Shown here one piece after another: positions 27,541-63,708 of a stretch of DNA of 64,000 bases; position 1 is the stretch's first letter; each line of letters begins with the position of its first letter. The notes below the pieces were generated by a model that made no database searches, was not told where the DNA came from, and saw only the letters and a program-made list of their open reading frames with translations. A program made the translations under genes and the position numbers. The stretch is taken from assembly GCA_027487485.1 (NCBI GenBank), contig JAIYDN010000019.1, forward strand, positions 1 to 64,000, given 5' to 3'. Source of the stretch: Planctomycetaceae bacterium (lineage in GTDB: Bacteria; Planctomycetota; Planctomycetia; Pirellulales; Pirellulaceae).

Positions 27541-28035
27541 ATGCATCGATTCGAACATATACGGCACAAGCCACCCACGGTACCCATTCAACCCAGAGAA
27601 TTGCTGATCGTTTTGGCCCCCATGCGCAGCAATGTCAACCTCAGCCGAATCGTGCGGCTAGCTGGGTGCGCCGGAGTTCTCAAAATCATCCAATGCGGGC
27701 CGGGCAAAGTGGATCGGGAAATCGCTCGGGATGCAATCGATGCGGTCGAAATTGTCCAGAGAAGATCGCTCGCACCCGTTCTTGAACAACTCAAAGAAGA
27801 AGGCTATTCCCGGGTAGGACTGGAACAGACCACCAATTCTAATTGTCTTTATGATTTTTCTTTCGAGCATCGCACTGCGTTGGTCATCGGAGCCGAACGA
27901 GAAGGGCTCACCCAAGACGAATTGGACCGTCTGGATCATGTGGTGGAGATTCCAGTATACGGACGCCCATTCAGCTACAACGTGGCGACCGCAACCACCA
28001 TGGCCGTTTACGAATACTGCAACCAGTTTCGTTAA
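27541..28035 (+). CDS. SpoU/TrmH-family RNA methyltransferase
   Basis: SPOUT-fold 2'-O-ribose RNA methyltransferase. The three SpoU motifs are present: motif 1 MRSNVNLSRIVRLAGCAG near residue 23, motif 2 TALVIGAEREGL near 108, and motif 3 IPVYGRPFSYNVATATTM near 137. The last two form the trefoil-knot SAM site. At 164 residues it is the single-domain short form, closer to TrmL/TrmH-like proteins than to RlmB. The exact tRNA or rRNA target cannot be read from the sequence. AAGGA lies just upstream of the ATG. It is the last chromosomal-type gene before the attC array. Confidence 0.85.
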   Translation: MHRFEHIRHKPPTVPIQPRELLIVLAPMRSNVNLSRIVRLAGCAGVLKIIQCGPGKVDREIARDAIDAVEIVQRRSLAPVLEQLKEEGYSRVGLEQTTNSNCLYDFSFEHRTALVIGAEREGLTQDELDRLDHVVEIPVYGRPFSYNVATATTMAVYEYCNQFR

Positions 28036-28156
28036 CCTTGTTGGTCGGCGGGCAAAGTTCGGAGGGCAAAGTAGAGAACTCCGTAAAACGGCTTGGTATC
28101 CATTGGATGACATTGGGAAGAAGTCGAAACGTAGTCAACACGACACGGCCGCCAAA

Positions 28157-28213
28157 AGTAGCAGGCACGCTCCGCCGTGCCGTCCGCAGCGGCGCACGGA
28201 AAGTGCCTACTAA
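28157..28213. repeat. imperfect palindromic (MITE- or REP-like) element
   Basis: TAGCAGGCAC at 28159-28168 is mirrored by GTGCCTACTA at 28203-28212, with a GC-rich inner segment (CCGTGCCGTCCGCAGCGGC) that can also pair. The size, terminal inverted repeats and intergenic location fit a small non-coding hairpin element. It has no open reading frame. Confidence 0.6.
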
Positions 28214-28414
28214 GATAGATTTTGTCAGTTGCGCCTAACGGATCCCGAAACCAACGGAACGTTCGCAGACCTACCGTCGATTGATAGCGAACCGAGTCCG
28301 GTTTCCCGAGTCGAAAATGGCTAAAGAAACGAACGTCGCAGGAGAAGATTCCGGGCGACTTTCTTAACATTTGCCAGCATTCCCCAAATCGGACTTGCGG
28401 TGTTTTGTCGCGGT

Positions 28415-28472
28415 ATTTAACGTGGGTCAGCCAGGGGGAAAAACTATTTTCCTCGGCTGACCGGTGTTAGAC
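28415..28472 (+). mobile_element. attC-like integron recombination site 0
   Basis: Opens with ATTTAAC (28415-28421), a perfect match to the R'' core RYYYAAC, and closes with GTTAGAC (28466-28472), a perfect match to the R' core GTTRRRY. Inner arms GGTCAGCC and GGCTGACC are exact complements. At 58 bp it is at the short end of the attC size range. It lies directly before the first cassette gene. Alone it could pass for a terminator hairpin; the two perfect core boxes and four further sites downstream argue for attC. Confidence 0.75.
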
Positions 28473-28532
28473 TCCTTTTCCCCCCAAATGACTCTGGGGA
28501 GAATTTATTGTTACCCAACTCAAGAGCAGCGC

Positions 28533-29237
28533 ATGAAGTATGGAATCGCTTTCACACTTTTGGCCGCTCTGATCGCCTACATCGCGATCACAAACGGAGG
28601 CTCGGCATACCTCTTGCTTTGGCCTGCACTATCATTCCTTTTTGTCGCCTTCGCGTACTTCGGCGCTGGCCCAACAGTGTTTGGCAAACAGCAATGCGGA
28701 ACGCTGGAACCAATTCGGCAGATCCTCCTTGCTCCATTCCTGCTCTATCTTTGGCTGGTCTGGCACATGGTTCGTCTAATCTCTCGTGAAGCCCCTTACG
28801 ACCAACTGACCGAGTCCGTTTTTATTGGCCGACGCCTCCTTTCATCGGAGCGGCCAAAGCAATTTGACCATATTGTTGATTTGACATGCGAATTCAACGA
28901 ACCGTCCGCAATGCGATCGACTGGATACATCTCGTTTCCAACGCTTGATACACATCACCCGTCTATTGAGGAATTGCGCAGACGCGTTGAAATCATTGCA
29001 AATCTTGATGGCACCGTTTACATTCATTGTGCACAGGGGCACGGACGGACTGCCACGCTTGCAATTGCGTACTTGCTCCATACTGGTCATTCGGCTACGG
29101 TCGACGCTGCCATCACATACGTTTTGGATCGCCGTCCGCTCGCCCACCTCGGACGTTCGCAGCGTCAAATACTTCAAGCACTCAGGATGTCGGGTAACAA
29201 TCCGATGCACCCAAGCGGCGGATCAGCCGTTGCCTGA
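28533..29237 (+). CDS. membrane-anchored dual-specificity/tyrosine phosphatase (cassette 1)
   Basis: 234-residue protein with two or three N-terminal hydrophobic segments (AFTLLAALIAYIAI, LLLWPALSFLFVAFAYFGAG, ILLAPFLLYLWLVW), followed by a cytoplasmic cysteine-phosphatase domain. The catalytic loop HCAQGHGRTATLA has Cys166 and Arg172, and the likely general-acid Asp139 is in FPTLDTHH. The last residues (NNPMHPSGGSAVA) are encoded by the left arm of the following attC site, typical of cassette genes whose stop lies in attC. The ATG at 28533 is chosen because it precedes the first hydrophobic segment; an earlier GTG-type frame would run through the attC core. It could dephosphorylate a protein or a lipid; which one is unknown. 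Confidence 0.8.
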   Translation: MKYGIAFTLLAALIAYIAITNGGSAYLLLWPALSFLFVAFAYFGAGPTVFGKQQCGTLEPIRQILLAPFLLYLWLVWHMVRLISREAPYDQLTESVFIGRRLLSSERPKQFDHIVDLTCEFNEPSAMRSTGYISFPTLDTHHPSIEELRRRVEIIANLDGTVYIHCAQGHGRTATLAIAYLLHTGHSATVDAAITYVLDRRPLAHLGRSQRQILQALRMSGNNPMHPSGGSAVA

Positions 29238-29281
29238 TGGAAAATTAACTCGCCGCCGCTGGGTGATCGGTCGCGTTATCC
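29192..29281 (+). mobile_element. attC-like site 1
   Basis: R'' region GGGTAAC (29192-29198) and R' region GTTATCC (29275-29281) bound a 90-bp imperfect palindrome. The left arm reads AACAATCCGATG then CACCCAAGCGGCGG. The complement of the right arm reads AACGCGACCGAT then CACCCAGCGGCGG. The left strand has an extra G and an extra A, the extrahelical bases that give attC its strand polarity. Orientation is the same as in sites 0 and 2-4. Confidence 0.85.
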
Positions 29282-29431
29282 CTCTCAATCACATTGTTGA
29301 ATGTAAGGTCCCCGCATTATCGTCGCTTACAGATTTATGAAATGCTCCAGAAAGCAGGCAATAATTTCTCCCGATTTGCGAATACGGATGCGAACACCAG
29401 TCTTCCTGTTCTTCCGAGGCATAAAGTCAAA

Positions 29432-30070
29432 ATGAGACACTTAACCGGATCAATTCTTTTGTTGTTTCTGCTAGTGATGACTGGGTGCGGCAAAAAGAAT
29501 CCCGTTGGCGCTGGCGGCCCTCCTGCAAGAATGCTTAAACAGAAAGAGATCGACGAAAAACATGCCGCAAACTTCCTTGCGGGTGCAAAGGATTTTCAGA
29601 ATGACGGTCATCCGAAATACGCGATCAACACACTCAAAGAACTGCTTGAACAGTTTCCAGATTCCGAATCTGCTGTTGAGGCGAAGCAAATGCTTGCTGA
29701 AATAGAAAAACAAAAATCCGATGCCGAGACGGAGGCCAACGATCGCGAATCGGGAGAGACTATTGCCGTTCAAGGGTTGCTGAGGCATTTCCCACAGGAC
29801 GTGAAAAGCACGGAGGCTTGGCTTGGGCATGAATTCATGGTCGGCGAAACACCAATTCGAATTACCGAAAAAGTTCCGCGTGACGTTTTGATAAATATGG
29901 TAGGAGAGAACGTTGAGATCGAGGGCTTATGGAATGCAGGTGAGAAATGGGAGCCCCCCAAGCCTGCCGAGGAAGGATTTCAGTTGCAGTATCCTTTGTA
30001 TCCTGAGGGCTCGACTGTAGTAAGGGGGGCAGGAATCGAGGCGTCCTCGGTTACAAAGATTGATAAGTGA
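29432..30070 (+). CDS. lipoprotein of unknown function (cassette 2)
   Basis: 212-residue lipoprotein. The N terminus MRHLTGSILLLFLLVMTGCGKK gives a lipobox VMTGC with Cys18. A helical region follows (KHAANFLAGAKDFQNDGHPKY and INTLKELLEQFPDSESA), resembling one TPR-like pair. The C-terminal half, with GETIAVQGLLRHFPQDVKSTEA, is mixed alpha/beta. I recognise no enzyme motif. The ATG at 29432 is used because the signal sequence begins there; the frame extends 46 codons upstream without a signal. It has no own terminator and sits between attC sites 1 and 2. Confidence 0.7.
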   Translation: MRHLTGSILLLFLLVMTGCGKKNPVGAGGPPARMLKQKEIDEKHAANFLAGAKDFQNDGHPKYAINTLKELLEQFPDSESAVEAKQMLAEIEKQKSDAETEANDRESGETIAVQGLLRHFPQDVKSTEAWLGHEFMVGETPIRITEKVPRDVLINMVGENVEIEGLWNAGEKWEPPKPAEEGFQLQYPLYPEGSTVVRGAGIEASSVTKIDK

Positions 30071-30093
30071 GTCGCAGCGCAGGTTCTCAATTG

Positions 30094-30187
30094 GGATAAC
30101 CAGTCGATGCACGGGAGCCGGAAAACGTCATGCTTTTGCTTCGCTCGTCAACGTCTACTCCCGGCCCCGTGATCTCAAACGTTATGC
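30094..30187 (+). mobile_element. attC-like site 2
   Basis: R'' GGATAAC (30094-30100) and R' GTTATGC (30181-30187) enclose a 94-bp imperfect palindrome. Left AACCAGTCGATG with CACGGGAGCCGG pairs with the complement of the right arm, AACGTTTGAGAT with CACGGGGCCGG, leaving one extra A on the left strand. The next gene starts 11 bp after the R' core, as expected for a compact cassette. Confidence 0.88.
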
Positions 30188-30197
30188 GAGAAGATTG

Positions 30198-30872
30198 ATG
30201 CGACTCGAACAGTACACAGTTGACGCAATTGGACGGGCAATGGGGATCGCTTCCATTGCTACCCTGCCTCCGCCCACTGTACGTTCATTCCGCGTGCTCC
30301 TAAAGCCATCCTTCACACCAGAAGTTTGCTTGACAGCAATCGAATCAGACACCGAAGCGATCATTGAGGTTGTGAGCTTGTACGAAATGCTATGGCATCG
30401 ACCTTTTCCGTGCGTTTTAAGAAGCGAAAAAGAGTCTTTAGCAATCGAAAGAGAATTCTTTCAACAGTTGAATGATCTTTTTGACGACGCATGGGATGCT
30501 ATTCATCTCGACGCGCGTCCGGTGGTGGTTTGCGATGGAATGGGAATCGACATGTTTCGACGTTGCGAATGCAATACCGAAACAATTAGTACATATGTGA
30601 GTGGACGACCACTCGCGACATTCCTAGAAACAATCTTGCCTCGATTGCATTCCGGTTTCAGGAATCGTCTTTTGCGCAACAACCTCGCTCATTGCGGAAA
30701 ATATGCTAGATTAGAACTGGGTCTCGAAACACCACCTCATTTCGAGAGTCCCAAACGATATCTTGGCGTCTTCGGTGTCGAAGAAGATCGCGGTGAGATC
30801 ATTCGCGTACTTTCAAACATGCCGGAATCGCATAACAAACCGATGCACCCAAGCGGCGATCAGGCGCACTAA
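30198..30872 (+). CDS. unrecognised protein (cassette 3)
   Basis: 225 residues, no signal peptide, no membrane helix. The middle contains Glu-rich helices (SEKESLAIEREFFQQLNDLFDDAWDAI), and near 170-190 FRNRLLRNNLAHCGKYARLEL, a helical segment with a conserved-looking Arg-Asn-Asn and His. No family could be named. The last residues (NKPMHPSGDQAH) come from attC site 3. The ATG at 30198 is chosen because it follows the site 2 core directly; the longer frame reads through the attC. Confidence 0.65.
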   Translation: MRLEQYTVDAIGRAMGIASIATLPPPTVRSFRVLLKPSFTPEVCLTAIESDTEAIIEVVSLYEMLWHRPFPCVLRSEKESLAIEREFFQQLNDLFDDAWDAIHLDARPVVVCDGMGIDMFRRCECNTETISTYVSGRPLATFLETILPRLHSGFRNRLLRNNLAHCGKYARLELGLETPPHFESPKRYLGVFGVEEDRGEIIRVLSNMPESHNKPMHPSGDQAH

Positions 30873-30918
30873 CAAATCAATGCTTCATCCCGCCGCTGGG
30901 TGAATCGAACCGTTCTGC
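30830..30918 (+). mobile_element. attC-like site 3
   Basis: R'' GCATAAC (30830-30836) and R' GTTCTGC (30912-30918) bound 89 bp. Left AACAAACCGATG with CACCCAAGCGGCG pairs with the complement of the right arm, AACGGTTCGATT with CACCCAGCGGCG, again with one unpaired A on the left. The left arm shares CCGATGCACCCAAGCGGCG exactly with site 1, so the two sites are close relatives. The preceding gene's stop codon lies inside it. Confidence 0.85.
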
Positions 30919-30938
30919 GTTGAAAATCCAAGGATGCA

Positions 30939-31316
30939 ATGGACAAGGAAGAAGCCATCGAAATTGTTCTGAACGAGGTATGCCAAGAGTCTGGTGTATA
31001 CACTTTACTTAGGTTGGGGCAGACGCCCGATCCAGTACTTGGTCGAGACCTTTGCATCGCACTTCGAACACTCTGGCGAGCGTTTCAGGATCAACCGACG
31101 CAACTACCAACCGATGTCATGAGAGCGTGCGCCGGGATTCTCGCCTTTTATCACGAGGCAACAATTAACTTAAACGAGAGCTCGGATTCAAAGGCTGTTA
31201 CTTTACTCAACGACATAGGATTAAATGCCTACGGTGTGCTTATGGGGAGGGAAACACAAATGGTTTTTCGTGCCGATCTAGATGACAATGCCGAGTACTT
31301 TCGTTACAAAAGCTGA
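30939..31316 (+). CDS. unrecognised small protein (cassette 4)
   Basis: 125 residues, soluble and helical (KEEAIEIVLNEVCQESG, VMRACAGILAFYHEATINL), with a short charged C terminus. The ATG lies 20 bp after the core of attC site 3, and the stop precedes site 4 by 6 bp. No domain could be named. The compact spacing on both sides is the main reason to accept it as a genuine cassette gene. Confidence 0.65.
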   Translation: MDKEEAIEIVLNEVCQESGVYTLLRLGQTPDPVLGRDLCIALRTLWRAFQDQPTQLPTDVMRACAGILAFYHEATINLNESSDSKAVTLLNDIGLNAYGVLMGRETQMVFRADLDDNAEYFRYKS

Positions 31317-31322
31317 ATGATC

Positions 31323-31416
31323 GCAGAACAATGGCATGCACTCCGAGGGCTCGATCGTCCGAGTTTGGTCGTTGCCCTTGTTTTTTACTCGCCCCGGGTG
31401 ATGCCGGGCGTTCGGC
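31323..31416 (+). mobile_element. attC-like site 4
   Basis: R'' GCAGAAC (31323-31329) and R' GTTCGGC (31410-31416), 94 bp apart end to end. Left AACAATGGCATGCAC and the complement of the right arm AACGCCCGGCATCAC share GGCAT and CAC, with one unpaired G. The inner arms are weaker than in sites 1-3. Same orientation as the others. Confidence 0.75.
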
Positions 31417-31451
31417 AGAAACATCCGTAACGAGTGCTCGGAAACCATAAA

Positions 31452-32372
31452 ATGCAATTTCATTCTCTCTGTATTGCTGCATTTTTTGTCGCCGTTGCTC
31501 CGACCGGATCTGTCGCTTCCGATCCCGTCACCACGGGCGAGTACGTCATTACTCAGTCGTGGTCGCAGGAAACGGCTTTTCAACGTGCGTATTACGTCCA
31601 TGTTCCCGAACACGCAGGGAAGAATAGGCTTCCGGTTTTCATCTTCCTACACGGTAACGGCGGTCACGCACTGGAAGCCATGCGCGGATTCAGCCGACAC
31701 CGCAAGACCATAGCGTCGCAATACATTACAGTGTTTCCGCAGGGCTATCGCGAGAGTTGGAACATTGTTGCCGAGCGATCCAAAGCCGATGATTGCGAAT
31801 TCATTGAAGCGATTGTTGGGAAGCTGGCCAAAGCGGACAACGTCGATCCAAAGAACTTTACGATCATGGGCTCGTCCAACGGATCAGCTCTGGTGAATCA
31901 ACTGATGATCGAAAGCGACCTGTCACACGTTCGCAACTACATCAGCGCCGTCAGTCCTCTTAACGTGATGCAGTACGACGGCAAGGACTTCAAGGCCAAG
32001 GGCGACGACAACAATTACACAGTTGCGGCGACTCCCGTCAGGGGCAAGCGACTGATGAATATCTCGGGGCTGAAAGACGATCTCGTTCCATACATGGGCG
32101 GACCTTCAAGAGCGATTCCAGGCAAAGACGGCAAACTGACGTTTGTTGCCGCCGAAGAGTCGACGTTTGTTTGGGCCCGTCACATGGGACATGAGGGGAA
32201 AAGAATCACGGAGCCATCCCGAATCAGCGGCAATTTGGAGGTTTTCAGCTATCTTGACGGCGACGTAATCCATTACAAAGTCCAGCATGAAGGGCATGGT
32301 GCAGAGCGTGGAATCCCAGAGCAAGCGTTACTGGATTTCCTCAAAGGCAATCATCCCGACCGTAAGAAGTGA
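31452..32372 (+). CDS. secreted PHB-depolymerase-like esterase (cassette 5)
   Basis: 306-residue alpha/beta hydrolase with an N-terminal signal (FHSLCIAAFFVAVAPTGSVAS). FIFLHGNGGHALEAM matches the oxyanion region HGxxG, and the nucleophile is Ser in IMGSSNGSALVN. A late His in VQHEGHGAERG would complete the triad, with an Asp near SGLKDDLVPY. The family acts on poly(3-hydroxybutyrate) or other acyl esters; the actual substrate is unknown. It starts 35 bp after the core of site 4. No attC was recognised after its stop, where REP-like repeats begin. Confidence 0.78.
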   Translation: MQFHSLCIAAFFVAVAPTGSVASDPVTTGEYVITQSWSQETAFQRAYYVHVPEHAGKNRLPVFIFLHGNGGHALEAMRGFSRHRKTIASQYITVFPQGYRESWNIVAERSKADDCEFIEAIVGKLAKADNVDPKNFTIMGSSNGSALVNQLMIESDLSHVRNYISAVSPLNVMQYDGKDFKAKGDDNNYTVAATPVRGKRLMNISGLKDDLVPYMGGPSRAIPGKDGKLTFVAAEESTFVWARHMGHEGKRITEPSRISGNLEVFSYLDGDVIHYKVQHEGHGAERGIPEQALLDFLKGNHPDRKK

Positions 32373-32405
32373 GCAAAGGCCCGACAAGCGATTTAGGGGG
32401 CATTA

Positions 32406-32455
32406 GGGCAGAACGGTGCCACCCACCTTCGGGCAGAACGGTGCCACCCACCTTC
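32406..32455. repeat. 25-bp REP-like unit, two direct copies
   Basis: The unit GGGCAGAACGGTGCCACC with ACCTTC (32406-32430) is repeated exactly at 32431-32455. Each unit contains the small hairpin GGTG...CACC. Inverted forms of the same core (GGTGGGTGGC) recur on the far side of the transposase near 33987, 34127 and, degenerate, 34465. Confidence 0.75.
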
Positions 32456-32497
32456 CGCTTGATTTTGGCGATGACCGTTGGTAGAATGGTCGCACTC

Positions 32498-32503
32498 AAG
32501 GAG
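32498..32503 (+). promoter_or_regulatory. ribosome-binding site for the transposase
   Basis: AAGGAG with a 7-nt spacer before the ATG at 32511. It selects this start over one 11 codons upstream. Confidence 0.8.
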
Positions 32504-32510
32504 ATTGATT

Positions 32511-33662
32511 ATGCCTAGGCCTTTGCGTTCTGAGATCTATAGCCCACTAGAAGTTTCTATCCTGCACGTGTGCCAACGTTGCGTTCGGCGGGCGTACTTG
32601 GCAGGTGTTGATGATGCCTCCGGGAAAGACTACTCCTACCGGAAAGAGTGGATTCGGCAGCGGATTGAGAAGCTTGCCTCGGTCTTTAGCGTGGATATTT
32701 TATCCTATGCGATTCTTTCGAACCACCTGCACATTGTCGTCCGCAACCGGCCCGATGTCGTGAAAACTTGGTCGGATAAACAGGTTGCCTTGCGGTGGCT
32801 TCAGATTTTCCCTGGGAAGCGAATCGACGAGCAGTTGGGCGATCCAACCACGAGCGATGTGGATGCCCTAGCTAAAGATGCTGAAAGGCTGGCATTGGTG
32901 CGTAAAAGGCTTTCGGATATCTCTTGGTTTATGCGAGCGTTGTCGGAGCCGATCGCTCGAATTGCAAACCGTGATGACAAATGCACGGGGGCTTTTTGGG
33001 AAGGTCGTTTTCGGGCTCAGAGAATTATTGATGAAGCGGCTTTGCTGGCTTGTTGCATGTATGTCGATTTGAATCCGATTCGTGCTGCTATGGCCGAATC
33101 GCTTGAGAAATCGGAGTTTACGTCCGCTTATGATCGGATTGCGGCTCAGGCTGGAAAGAAGATCGACTCGTCGGCAGCTCAAATGAAAACGATTCCGAAA
33201 GAGGAAGCGGCCAAGATGTTGCGCGAGCTGACGCCGGACCAGTTGAGTGAGACTCGCAAGCAGGCCAGGAAACGCAAGGGTGCTAGAGTTTTGCGGGACG
33301 CTTGGTTGGCACCATTAACGTTGGATCGCAAGTCGCATGGTCCGATGGCGAGCAAGGATGGGCTTCGAGCCAGTGACAAGGGGTTCTTGGACATGAGTTT
33401 CGACGAATACCGTCGGTTGTTGGAATGGACTGGACGTCAGAAACGTTCGGACAAGAAGGGATCGATTCCAGAGGATTACGCTCCGGTGCTGGAGCGAGTT
33501 GGGATCGATGCAGGGATGTGGTGCGATTTGGTGTGGAACTTCAAGAAGTACTTTGGCAAGAGCCGCGGCGCGGGTTCGCCCGACCGCATGCGTGAGATGG
33601 CAGCATCTGGAGGCAAGATGTTTCAGCCGGGCCAAAAAATGGCACGTAAGTGCTTTGCATGA
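32511..33662 (+). CDS. REP-associated tyrosine transposase (Y1/HUH, IS200-related)
   Basis: 383-residue transposase of the Y1 single-strand family. The HUH motif is LSNHLHIVV (His-Leu-His), and the probable catalytic Tyr is in CCMYVDLNPIRAAM, where REP-associated transposases have YxxxNPVRA. The N terminus MPRPLRSEIY and the FWEGRFRAQRI motif fit the planctomycete branch. The C-terminal 160 residues are a basic extension (RKQARKRKGARV). Flanking REP-like units in inverted orientation (32406-32455 and 33987-34480) are the likely substrates. It follows the cassette array directly, and the esterase cassette's expected attC is not seen. Confidence 0.88.
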   Translation: MPRPLRSEIYSPLEVSILHVCQRCVRRAYLAGVDDASGKDYSYRKEWIRQRIEKLASVFSVDILSYAILSNHLHIVVRNRPDVVKTWSDKQVALRWLQIFPGKRIDEQLGDPTTSDVDALAKDAERLALVRKRLSDISWFMRALSEPIARIANRDDKCTGAFWEGRFRAQRIIDEAALLACCMYVDLNPIRAAMAESLEKSEFTSAYDRIAAQAGKKIDSSAAQMKTIPKEEAAKMLRELTPDQLSETRKQARKRKGARVLRDAWLAPLTLDRKSHGPMASKDGLRASDKGFLDMSFDEYRRLLEWTGRQKRSDKKGSIPEDYAPVLERVGIDAGMWCDLVWNFKKYFGKSRGAGSPDRMREMAASGGKMFQPGQKMARKCFA

Positions 33663-34012
33663 ACGAGTCGGTGCACGGATGGGCAGTGAACTTTTGGGCA
33701 TCGAGATAGATACAAACGCGTCAGTCGCGATGAGGCCTTTCTTGTCAATGAAGTCAGAATGGACAACTTCATTTTTGCGTTGGGCGATCGTTGGTGAGTG
33801 ATCATTTACTCAGATACCGCACGGCCGATGGCATGGGACAAAAACTGCTGGCCAATAGTGCAGAGTGGCTTAGCTTGACTTTTTTCCTGTTATCCCGTCA
33901 AGACGCAACGCGATTGATTGCCCGGTGGGCCATTGGCTTGCGATTGCTGGTTACATCATACCGCCGCTTTACGGCAAAACGCTAGCTTGAAAGGTGGGTG
34001 GCTCCGATCTGC

Positions 34013-34113
34013 TGTGGGCCGGACACCCTCGTGCTCGGTCTTGTAGGGGGAGTCGCGTATTAACGCACCAAACCTGTTGCGAAGGTGGGGCACAAGGCCC
34101 CACCTTCGCGTTG
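34013..34113. repeat. dispersed hairpin repeat, copy A
   Basis: Contains CGCACCAAACCTGTTGC followed by a perfect 13-bp stem, GCGAAGGTGGGGC (34079-34091) and GCCCCACCTTCGC (34097-34109), around the loop ACAAG. The preceding 50 bp (GTGGGCCGGA... GGAGTCGCGTATTAACGCACC) also match copy C at 48649-48751. Confidence 0.85.
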
Positions 34114-34621
34114 TGCGGATGAGAACGGTGGGTGGCACAGCCCTGCTGGCCTTATGCTGTCGACCACACGGGTTTGCGACCCCTTCGACTGCGCCGATTC
34201 ACGGCTGTCCTTTATTACAAAATCGAAGAATACCTCATTCCGGCTCCCGCCATTATTGTGATTGTTGGTTTGCTTGTGGGTGGTCGCGACGAGCAATGCC
34301 TCAGGTATCGCGGGTAACCAACAGTGCCTTCGGACGGTGCCACCGCTCCGGCAGGGATAGATTACTGTTCGTTCGTCGAGTGCAATTGCGGTGTGTTTTG
34401 ATGCAAGAATTGAACCCATGCGAACCAACTGAACGATCCGACAAATCGAAACGTAGGGATGAAAACGGTGGGCGGCACAGCTCAGCTGCTGCTTAGCTCA
34501 GCTAGCCTCGAAGCTAGAACACGGCAGGGCAAATCCCGTGAAATATTGGAGAATTTGATCAATCAGTATCTTGGAACAGGCTGTAGGAGTTTAGACTGTG
34601 GGCCGTCGGTTTGAGGAGCGA

Positions 34622-34695
34622 GGGCGTCTCGCCCGCTGAACCCTTCAACCAACGTAATTACGAAGATTGATTTAGGAATTGCCGGCGAGACGCCC
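34622..34695. repeat. 12-bp inverted repeat
   Basis: GGGCGTCTCGCC (34622-34633) and its exact complement GGCGAGACGCCC (34684-34695) are separated by 50 bp, just upstream of the copper-monooxygenase-like gene. It may be another hairpin repeat or a regulatory site. Confidence 0.7.
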
Positions 34696-34723
34696 GCGAT
34701 CCGAGAGACTACCCTGGGCGAAG

Positions 34724-34730
34724 AAAAGGA
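34724..34730 (+). promoter_or_regulatory. ribosome-binding site selecting the start at 34736
   Basis: AAAAGGA, 5 nt before the ATG. It favours 34736 over an in-frame upstream start at 34679 that would lie inside the 34684-34695 repeat arm. Confidence 0.7.
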
Positions 34731-34735
34731 CTCGT

Positions 34736-36739
34736 ATGTTCATGAAGATCTACCGATGTTTAGCACTCGTTCTTTGCGGTTTCATTTCGCTGTCGACGCA
34801 AGCCGATGAGCCGCAATTGGGCGACTTGCGATCGATGGAGTTAAAGTCTATCGACGGCTCAATTGTTTCGTTCGCCGATACGAAGTTGCATGTTTATTGC
34901 GTGCTGGGGACCGAATGTCCGGTGTCTCGGTTCTATGCGGCTCGCTTGGATGAGCTTTCGAAGCAATATGCCGATCAAGGAGTTCGCTTCGTAGGTATTC
35001 ATTCCAATATGCACGATTCGGAAGCGGATGTTCAAAAGTTCATGAAGGAACTCAGCGTTTCGTTTCCGCAAGTTCACGATGCAAGACAAGCTATTGCGCG
35101 GCAGCTCAGTGCAACGCGAGTGCCGGAAGTTTTCTTGCTCGATACGGAAGGCAAAGTACGCTACAGCGGTCGAGTCGATGACCAGTATGCGCCGGGTGTG
35201 AAACGCTCTGCTGCAAACACCAATCATTTGAAAAATGCCATTGACGCGGTACTTGCTGGAAAGAAGCCGGTAGAATCTCGTGTTGAACCAGTGGGTTGTT
35301 TGATCACGTTTGAGAAACCGGCTGAGACTGTTCCGGCAACAGATATCACCTACTGCAAAACAATTGCACCTCTATTCAATGAACATTGCGTTGAGTGTCA
35401 TCGAGAGGGTGAAATCGGGACGTTTGACATCACGAACTACGATGAAGTTCGCGGTTGGTCAGAGATGATCGTGGAAGTGGTCGAACAAAAACGAATGCCG
35501 CCTTGGCATGCTGACCCGAAGTTTGGCGAGTTCAAGAACCAGCGTCACATGCCGGACAGTGCGCTGGTAGTCTTGAAAGAATGGGTCAAAGCTGGAACGC
35601 CCTATGGCGACAAAGCCGATTTGCCGCCACCACCAAAATTCGTGGATGGATGGCGACTAGATAAAGAACCTGAATTGATTGTGTCGATGCGCGACAAGCC
35701 TTACACGATTCCTGCTAGCGGTTCGGTGGATTATCAATATTTTGTAGTGGATCCAAAGATCACCGAGGATCGCTGGGTTGCCTCAGCGCAGATTGTTCCG
35801 GGCAATCCATCAGTCGTTCATCATGCGATTGTGTTTGTGAGACCGCCCGATGGAGTCGACTTTTCTGGAATCGGTTGGTTGACGGCCTATGTGCCTGGGC
35901 AGCGCGCGACAATTTTCCCACCAGGCTTTGCCAGAAAAATCCCAGCTGGGTCCAAGCTCGTGTTTCAAATGCACTACACACCAAATGGGCAAGAACAAAC
36001 GGACGCGACACAAATTGGTATGACGTTTATGAATCCCAACGAAGTGACACATGAAGTATTCACGATGGTTGGTATCGATCAAGAGTTCGAAATACCACCG
36101 GGCGAATCAAATCACGTGGTTACCTCGAGTGTCAATCGGTTACCGCATGATGGTGTTCTGCTGGCAGTTTCGCCGCATATGCACTTGCGAGGCAAATCGT
36201 TTGAAATGGCTGCCGTGGCGAATCGCAATACAACGGGGGAGGATCGAAGCACGTTGTTGAAAGTCCCGCAATACGATTTCAACTGGCAGCACACCTATGA
36301 ATTTGCCGAGCCGATACGATTCAGCGAACTGAAATCGCTTGAGTTAACGACGACCTTTGATAACTCGAAAGGAAATCCCTTCAATCCAGCGCCTGAAGAA
36401 TATGTTGTGTGGGGCGATCAAACTTGGGAGGAAATGTCGGTTGCATTTCTAGAAGTTGCCAAGCCGCTAAAGCAAGATTCGGCCGTGATTAAACTGGCGA
36501 ACACGCCCGCTGAGGTTCTAACAACGAGCAAGGAAATGGACGAACCGACTGCAGGTCAAACAGAGTATGCGGATGATTTCTTGGCCAAATTCGATTCCAA
36601 CAAAGATGGCGCAGTTGTCGTTGCGGAAGTACCACGCATCGTAAAAGATTATTCATTCCGCCGCATTGATGCAGATGATAACGGTTCGATCACTCGCGAT
36701 GAGTTGATTGCAGCAGCAAAGGCGAAACGTGGAAAATAG
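34736..36739 (+). CDS. exported thioredoxin-like / haem c / copper monooxygenase-like / EF-hand protein
   Basis: 667-residue multi-domain exported protein. Order: signal peptide (about 6-22), thioredoxin/AhpC-like domain (about 30-175, single Cys in TECPVSRF), a haem-c motif CVECH (218-222) with MPPWHADP downstream, then a copper type II ascorbate-dependent monooxygenase-like region. In that region the metal-ligand candidates are VVHHAIVF (362-363), QMHYTPNG (His413) and SPHMHLRGK (481, 483). Two C-terminal EF-hand loops follow (DSNKDGAVVVAEV, DADDNGSITRDEL). Such redoxin/copper fusions are typical of planctomycetes; the reaction is unknown. The 3' end overlaps the MMPL exporter gene by 11 bp. 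Confidence 0.85.
   Translation: MFMKIYRCLALVLCGFISLSTQADEPQLGDLRSMELKSIDGSIVSFADTKLHVYCVLGTECPVSRFYAARLDELSKQYADQGVRFVGIHSNMHDSEADVQKFMKELSVSFPQVHDARQAIARQLSATRVPEVFLLDTEGKVRYSGRVDDQYAPGVKRSAANTNHLKNAIDAVLAGKKPVESRVEPVGCLITFEKPAETVPATDITYCKTIAPLFNEHCVECHREGEIGTFDITNYDEVRGWSEMIVEVVEQKRMPPWHADPKFGEFKNQRHMPDSALVVLKEWVKAGTPYGDKADLPPPPKFVDGWRLDKEPELIVSMRDKPYTIPASGSVDYQYFVVDPKITEDRWVASAQIVPGNPSVVHHAIVFVRPPDGVDFSGIGWLTAYVPGQRATIFPPGFARKIPAGSKLVFQMHYTPNGQEQTDATQIGMTFMNPNEVTHEVFTMVGIDQEFEIPPGESNHVVTSSVNRLPHDGVLLAVSPHMHLRGKSFEMAAVANRNTTGEDRSTLLKVPQYDFNWQHTYEFAEPIRFSELKSLELTTTFDNSKGNPFNPAPEEYVVWGDQTWEEMSVAFLEVAKPLKQDSAVIKLANTPAEVLTTSKEMDEPTAGQTEYADDFLAKFDSNKDGAVVVAEVPRIVKDYSFRRIDADDNGSITRDELIAAAKAKRGK
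36718..36722 (+). promoter_or_regulatory. ribosome-binding site inside the upstream gene
   Basis: AAAGG lies in the last codons of the monooxygenase-like gene, 6 nt before the GTG at 36729, indicating translational coupling of the two genes. Confidence 0.65.
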
Positions 36740-63536: not shown

Positions 63537-63708
63537 GGCTTGTCCCGACACGTCGCAACAGGTTTGGTGCGCTAGACATCGCGGATAGCCGACCAAACCT
63601 GTTGCGTTCTTCGGGCACAAGGCCCTTGAACGCAGAGGCTTTTTGGGGCTCGGTTGTGGTAGCACACCAAACCTGTTGCGAAGCTTGGCACGAGACCCAA
63701 CTTCGCAT
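63537..63708. repeat. dispersed hairpin repeat, copy D (degenerate, three cores)
   Basis: Holds an inverted CGCAACAGGTTTGGTGCGC near 63547, a direct CCAAACCTGTTGCG near 63593, and CACACCAAACCTGTTGCGAAG near 63664, the last followed by a weaker stem (GAAGCTTGG ... CCCAACTTCGC). It is the most rearranged copy of the family seen at 34013, 43217 and 48585. Confidence 0.7.

Follow-up and report, generated by a model that had tools for sequence, protein, structure and literature searches.

An attI-like leader and four gene cassettes beside a trmL-like gene: a probable decayed chromosomal integron in a Planctomycetaceae bacterium

Arrays of attC sites that lack a neighbouring integrase gene, known as CALINs (clusters of attC sites lacking an integrase), have been proposed to be degraded integrons, and one large survey counted 2961 of them vs. 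2760 complete integrons (PMC9024848). Published work is cited here and below for the parts of each source that were available. Whether CALINs are dead or working is largely an open question. We analyzed an array of this kind from Planctomycetaceae bacterium GCA_027487485.1 (the genome is labelled G000 and its relatives G002 etc.). It lies in a stretch of 64,000 nt (contig JAIYDN010000019.1, positions 1-64,000), which we call the window, next to a SpoU-family RNA methyltransferase gene, here called trmL-like. We conclude that the array is very probably a decayed chromosomal integron in which intI has been cut to a short fossil, whereas attI is intact and four cassettes remain, each with its own attC. 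The parts are classical; what is new, as far as we have seen, is the uncatalogued arrangement of an attI-bearing platform without intI.

A CALIN, as defined in IntegronFinder, consists of at least two attC sites with no intI in the vicinity. A preliminary description of the locus, made from its sequence alone, had applied this label, and the software definition does cover four attC sites without intI; the label misses an attI and a probable intI fossil, which are still identifiable here. The locus is no complete integron either, since beside attI there is no functional intI and only a 22-residue fossil. The sedentary chromosomal integrons of Vibrio and Xanthomonas are alike in their fixed chromosomal locus, their large number of related attC sites and their cassettes, the majority of unknown function. 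They are unlike the present case, in which at least 203 attC sites are spread over many loci of a genome with three divergent integrases and two attI platforms without intI. Closer in another respect are the Xanthomonas integrons with truncated intI and the attC remnants of Treponema phagedenis, in which intI was lost or truncated and the cassettes were kept (PMC12444791, PMC3607928). In those systems the loss of intI is reported to go with frozen or static arrays, whereas here the DNA past attI differs between relatives that seemingly share the truncation.

Planctomycetes integrons and a Planctomycetes attC model have already been published (PMC8352920, PMC2426708, PMC9668308), and intI pseudogenes, nearly one third of intI, are also in print (PMC2426708, PMC9668308, PMC8352920, PMC9024848). 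In the available parts of the open PMC literature we found no report of an attI family or an integrase-less attI platform for Planctomycetes, nor of an attI family that persists at several loci of a single genome in the absence of intI. A recognizable attI family outside class 1 makes it possible to tell integrons whose integrase is gone from randomly inserted cassettes, and the presence of two platforms and three integrases in one genome makes service in trans directly testable.

Four cassettes and their attC sites

We built a genus-specific attC covariance model (R1) from 63 sites at other loci of the same genome and of relatives, none of them from the window. The training sites came from 64 candidates picked by a heuristic palindrome scanner, of which 63 were aligned. 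The scanner was used solely for this choice and then superseded by the covariance model; it had ranked all five sites proposed in the preliminary description high, with site 1 (28415-28472) not separable from the others, and its control on the reversed window was poor (5 matches per strand). In the R1 training stem, 92.8% of cells were paired vs. 67.5% in shuffles, and 357 cells carried paired double changes vs. 118 in shuffles.

The whole window was scanned with R1 with filters off. Sites 2-5 of the preliminary description coincided exactly with R1 matches of 39.7-85.1 bits and are the attC sites of cassettes 1-4 (Table 1); the best other plus-strand match in the 64 kb had 14 bits. The R''/L''/L'/R' architecture, the conserved structure and the extrahelical bases are thus present in four of the five proposed sites, and site 1 lies inside the attI element. 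Extra stem bases left unpaired on one strand had been described for sites 1-3. This one-sidedness was seen in the R1 model and in all four aligned window attC sites. A pattern search with one attC core found the window site alone.

The first seven bases of a cassette (R', GTTNNNN) are expected to pair with the R'' of its own attC, because both meet in the circular form of the cassette. All four window cassettes follow this own-start/own-end rule, the starting 7-mer being the exact reverse complement of R'': GTTACCC (28510) with GGGTAAC (29192), GTTATCC (29275) with GGATAAC (30094), GTTATGC (30181) with GCATAAC (30830), and GTTCTGC (30912) with GCAGAAC (31323). Genome-wide, all four outer bases matched in 121 of 148 adjacent cassettes (three of the 148 being window cassettes 2-4), and R'' matched the R' following each attC at the outer bases in just 13 of 173; these 148 and 173 were kept after leaving out sites or pairs without exact AAC/GTT or more than 2500 nt apart. 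GTTACCC occurs once among the 17 GTT in 28036-29191, at 28510. By the rule, cassette 1 therefore begins there, 44 nt to the right of the boundary at 28466/28467 that had been proposed before. The rule can serve as a simple computational guide to cassette boundaries and to attI.

All four cassettes have one gene, one attC in the same orientation and a G/TT boundary. Five cassette genes had been proposed; the fifth, at 31434-32372, is no demonstrable cassette because no attC comes after it (no R1 match above chance 3' of the gene, and no GCCGAAC partner in 31401-36000). The protein of cassette 1 has a hydrophobic N-terminus (by eye) and relatives at 28 loci in Planctomycetota, Myxococcota and others. 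Among the matches listed, the entire cassette 1 (28510-29277) had a 93% identical counterpart in a different species of the genus (G020:C312:736-1502), which sits behind another attC and starts at the GTT of that attC. The cassette 2 product is probably a lipoprotein (lipobox by eye), and a stretch of it is weakly BamD/YbgF-like (TIGR03302, E 1.6e-6, under cut-off). A single homologue, 93% identical, was listed for the protein of cassette 3, and the cassette 4 protein had three matches (100%, which is the window's own, 78% and 66%).

The reading frames of cassettes 1 and 3 enter their own attC sites (29192-29237 and 30830-30872), which thus encode the NxPMHPSG tail of both proteins. In the close homologue of the cassette 3 protein the end motif is the same and the last stretch differs. 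Such attC-encoded tails could flag cassette proteins in databases.

The leader family, the probable intI remnant and a close relative

The DNA ahead of cassette 1 belongs to a family. A leader element ending exactly at the equivalent of 28512 was found ahead of arrays in C75 of the same genome and in G015:C181, and at the orthologous place in G002:C375, where the contig ends soon after. It is made up of a variable hairpin and a conserved 3' segment. A second covariance model (R2) was built from these four copies, the window copy included, and the 27 genus genomes were searched with it, 127 candidates being scored per genome. This gave 13 leader copies in 7 of the 27 genomes. Two of the 15 rows were dropped: a reverse-strand match inside the window element itself, and G012:C88 (24.1 bits), which had no GTT end and whose score was reached by 495 of 1000 shuffles. 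When the leader DNA was searched for in 119 family genomes, the one genome with matches was that of the window itself.

By R1, nine of the 11 leader copies with enough downstream DNA lead a same-strand attC array; two copies are cut by the contig end, 62 and ~500 nt downstream. Counting just the nine copies outside R2 training, six of eight testable ones lead arrays, two do not, and one is cut by the contig end. The link to an array is weaker for G008 C22, with its first attC 2.4 kb away, and for G015 C193, with a first attC of only 25.9 bits. Different cassettes are joined to the terminal GTT of the leader in different copies, and in 7 of 8 copies tested the R'' of the first attC was a fit for this GTT, G010:C655 being the exception.

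In G006:C233, 126 leader-like nucleotides end at the GTT of the first cassette, next to an intact divergent intI. Because this relative is flanked by the first cassette on one side and an intact divergent intI on the other, we read the leader at 28387-28512, on homology and boundary tests, as the attI at the head of the array. The similarity between the G006 site and the leader copies had z 12.5-19.6 for five copies (in G004, G010 and G018) and 3.0-8.7 for eight others; among 1000 fresh shuffles, the real score was reached by one for the window copy and by none for ten other copies.

Upstream of the second attI copy of the genome, in C75, a divergent gene (C75:219771-226892; L158:5772-12893) encodes a 2373-aa surface-type repeat protein.

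The preliminary description saw no tyrosine recombinase in the window, and we found no complete one: 17 genus IntI sequences (three of them partial) matched it only weakly, with a best E of 0.02. Left and right of the array, 28 kb and 32 kb are free of intI, so that a contig break does not explain its absence. We searched with the IntI of G006 by tblastn and found divergent N-terminal fragments 75-122 nt upstream of the leader at five loci (C75, G015 C181, G015 C193, G008 C55 and G008 C22; E 2.5e-5 to 8e-20). These stubs span at most residues 30-109 of the G006 IntI open frame and, except for the longer one in G008 C22, end at about residue 31-40 from the IntI start (read from the alignment). 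With window and G002 counted as one, the stub ends within about ten codons of the same place at five of six stub loci, and a stub is still ahead of attI in about half of the platform copies.

A profile of the IntI N-terminus was made from the five stubs and G006, without window and G002. Its top match among 2462 six-frame peptides of the window lies between the trmL-like gene and the leader (E 8.6e-4; 8.7e-4 with script-cut peptides), and the orthologous peptide of G002 had E 2.4e-4 among 261 peptides and 0.004 in a larger set. We regard 28073-28138 as a probable short N-terminal fossil of intI, the rest of the gene being gone.

G002 is the closest relative compared, as judged by trmL identity (467/495 nt). 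Its attI occupies the same place beside trmL and is identical to that of the window at 111 of 126 nt, and at 47 of the last 49. Past the GTT, 17 of 62 positions agree, these 62 nt reaching the end of the G002 contig in an assembly that is ~77% complete, with the attC of G002 itself beyond view. The difference sets in exactly at G/TT, which is what unlike first cassettes would give. A change at the predicted boundaries had been foreseen for related genomes, and G002 bears this out at the attI boundary only. On the other side of attI, the stub DNA of window and G002 is alike (67 nt at 79% identity), and an 11-nt exact match, with E 0.64 by itself, lies just beyond the stub. From the stub to the next aligned block there are 138 nt in the window vs. 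10 nt in G002, part of the window stretch being a dispersed repeat. Since both genomes keep only the stub and the adjoining 11-nt match, the truncation of intI is probably older than the split between them. Should the two genomes share the truncation, the cassette change at attI would postdate the loss of the local integrase, and the presence of different DNA at the same site in a close relative suggests that a recombinase made elsewhere still used attI.

The preliminary description had called for a search of the whole genome for intI and further attC sites, and the genome is not integrase-free. Three full-length IntI genes (C85:417-1415, C110:23243-24253 and C95:188-1135) passed the curated cut-off and have the integron-specific insert and the catalytic residues (read from the alignment). 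L156 was left out of integrase comparisons. In the genome stretches fetched there were at least 203 attC matches, a few of them partial, over many contigs and loci; the count fell from 212 to 203 rows when the overlapping loci L158 and L168 were dropped. The whole-genome search itself scored only 150 of 2778 candidates. Where an array lies on a short contig, an integrase may in some cases be linked to it. The window and C75 are the two attI platforms without intI in the DNA examined. Among the 27 genus genomes, 14 have an IntI at E <= 1e-60.

Several of the integrase loci have features of their own. Outside the integrases of C85 (1-416) and C110 (24254-24656) there is a shared sequence of 77 nt starting with GTTGAAC; the two attI sites probably hold one and the same first cassette. 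In C110, a plus-strand attC (C110:23122-23214; L002:1380-1472) lies ~30 nt from the 3' end of the minus-strand intI, with the cassette side at the intI 5' end, and on account of this attC the integrase gene seems to lie inside an array. In G007:C446 (L144, L086) attC sites share the strand of intI and lie at its 3' side, opposite to the usual divergent arrangement, and an attC and the start of an N-terminally shortened intI frame overlap in G004:C206 (L154:1101-1191). In G008 C22 (L224:3863-7784), with its 2.4 kb from attI to the first attC, a frame 28-35% identical to IntI runs antisense to the cassettes.

Interpretation and alternatives

The leader attI, the intI fossil, the change in G002 and the remote IntI genes together argue for a decayed integron that has kept its attI, not for a bare CALIN. 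The platform is probably served in trans by a remote integrase. In a mechanism modelled mostly on what is known of integrons, an integrase encoded at another locus of the genome would fold the bottom strand of a cassette attC and recombine the folded site with attI between G and TT. Cassettes would enter and leave at 28510/28511 and at each attC, and attI or its flank would drive their expression. We infer that attI and attC are still functional and that the remote integrases act on both. For the genus as a whole we offer, tentatively and as somewhat short of an even case, a split integron, in which a few integrase loci and dispersed attI platforms without intI would exchange cassettes via integrases acting in trans. 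The ending of five of six stubs at the same place would fit one ancestral truncated module copied to new loci.

A number of points weigh against a decayed integron with a family attI. The likeness between the attI of the window and that of G006 is weak alone (z 4.9; best of 500 shuffles, 43 vs. 38), and the link between them runs through intermediate copies; the similarity to G006 is weaker for G002 (8/1000 shuffles) and G015 C193 (18/1000). With R2 the G006 site ranks first among 18 integrase loci at no more than 13.6 bits (E 0.13), and only one of four delimitable intI-linked insertion sites falls in the leader family, those of G008 C83, G018 C120 and G020 C416 being outside it. No leader-type attI is shown for the three integrases of the genome itself, because each has its attI side facing a contig end. 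Two leaders, G010 C642 and C776, are without an attC over 4.6 and 6.8 kb of downstream DNA, and 6 of the 13 leader copies have no stub found. The window fossil is only 22 residues long (E 8.7e-4), and its distance from attI, 247 nt, exceeds the usual ~100. Finally, the IntI-like recombinase frame of G008 C22 is inside the first cassette, so that this platform may not be integrase-free.

The alternative that survives best is a static relic, in which attI and attC are intact in sequence only and the cassettes have stayed put from the loss of intI onwards. In Xanthomonas, arrays are usually identical among strains that share a broken intI (PMC12444791), and current activity at the trmL-like locus is without direct support. 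However, G002 and the window keep only the stub with matching neighbouring DNA, yet they differ exactly past the GTT. A truncation common to the two genomes would place the cassette change after it, which argues against a frozen array, and we consider this explanation unlikely though far from negligible.

It is improbable that the leader is a conserved promoter or other regulatory element of the arrays and no recombination site. A variable hairpin followed by a conserved 3' segment is compatible with such a role, and integrons usually have a promoter near attI (IntegronFinder 2.0). However, the leader stops exactly at the GTT and is joined there to different cassettes in different copies, and its relative in G006 sits at the place required of attI; the roles of promoter and attI are in any case compatible.

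Harder still to credit is a bare CALIN, in which a remote integrase inserted the cassettes at a chance chromosomal site (attG type) that was never a platform. Insertion at attG sites is known in the literature, no complete intI is nearby, and R1 found 0 attC in the DNA fetched from 20 trmL loci of relatives. Against this, the 126 nt ahead of cassette 1 recur, ending at GTT, before arrays at other loci and in other genomes, and five leader copies come with a divergent IntI N-terminal fragment, which is not expected of a chance site.

That site 1 is a true short attC with a fifth cassette to its left is extremely improbable, and we rejected it as an attC: its hairpin is real (DNA fold z -4.5), its AAC and GTT are placed right and the heuristic scanner gave it 47 points, but R1 found no match even at E <= 10, the AAC/GTT core has not been retained in the element at C75, and the start motif of cassette 1 lies at 28510 and nowhere else among the GTT to either side. 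The decayed integron with its own attI remains our preferred reading of the locus.

Flanking genes and other features of the window

The features of the locus are listed in Table 1.

Table 1. Features of the array and its flanks, in window positions
Feature	Position	Strand	Basis and remarks
SpoU-family RNA methyltransferase gene (trmL-like), chromosomal flank	27541-28035	+	Pfam PF00588, E 5.6e-25
Probable intI fossil	28073-28138	-	Profile match; peptide LTTFRLLPNVIQWIPSRFTEFS, ~residues 10-31 of G006-type IntI N-terminus
Dispersed repeat between intI fossil and attI	28134-28189	no strand	Short matches in at least G002, G008, G014, G016
Leader read as attI (primary cassette insertion site), ~126 nt	28387-28512	+	R2 family; ends at G/TT crossover; encloses the site 1 hairpin 28415-28472
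Cassette 1, 765 bp	28511-29275	+	Gene 28533-29237, dual-specificity-phosphatase-like, Pfam PF00782, E 4.3e-13
attC of cassette 1	29192-29281	+	R1 85.1 bits, E 3.8e-21
Cassette 2, 906 bp	29276-30181	+	Gene 29432-30070
attC of cassette 2	30094-30187	+	R1 39.7 bits, E 1.8e-8; weakest of the four
Cassette 3, 731 bp	30182-30912	+	Gene 30198-30872, 224-aa protein of no known kind
attC of cassette 3	30830-30918	+	R1 55.3 bits, E 7.9e-13
Cassette 4, 498 bp	30913-31410	+	Gene 30939-31316, 125-aa protein of no known kind
attC of cassette 4	31323-31416	+	R1 68.8 bits, E 1.4e-16; last of the array
PHA depolymerase/esterase-like gene, right flank	31434-32372	+	In-frame ATG 31452; NF050058, E 2.1e-15, under cut-off
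REP-associated tyrosine transposase-like gene (RAYT), right flank	32511-33662	+	NF047646, E 1.6e-9, under cut-off

The trmL-like gene on the left has relatives in 57 of 60 genomes. At the right edge of the array, DNA comparison gave no match within 31417-32400 among the matches listed. The best G002 match of the next large gene to the right is a 41% paralogue.

Scans of the whole window gave no Rfam family reaching the gathering threshold and, with ARAGORN, no tRNA, and none of six genes tested had a PADLOC defence-system match. At the right end of the window (63553-63681) there is a palindromic repeat with AACAGGTTTGGT motifs; its heuristic-scanner score is high, and the attC model does not accept it.

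The RAYT gene starts 1.1 kb past the last attC, and related RAYT copies are scattered through the genome. Among the matches listed, its DNA is 90% identical to C95:94573-95795 and 85% identical to C3:195412-196965. A 25-nt tandem repeat precedes the gene (32403-33662 for repeat and gene together), and the 90% identical copy at C95 adjoins another attC array.

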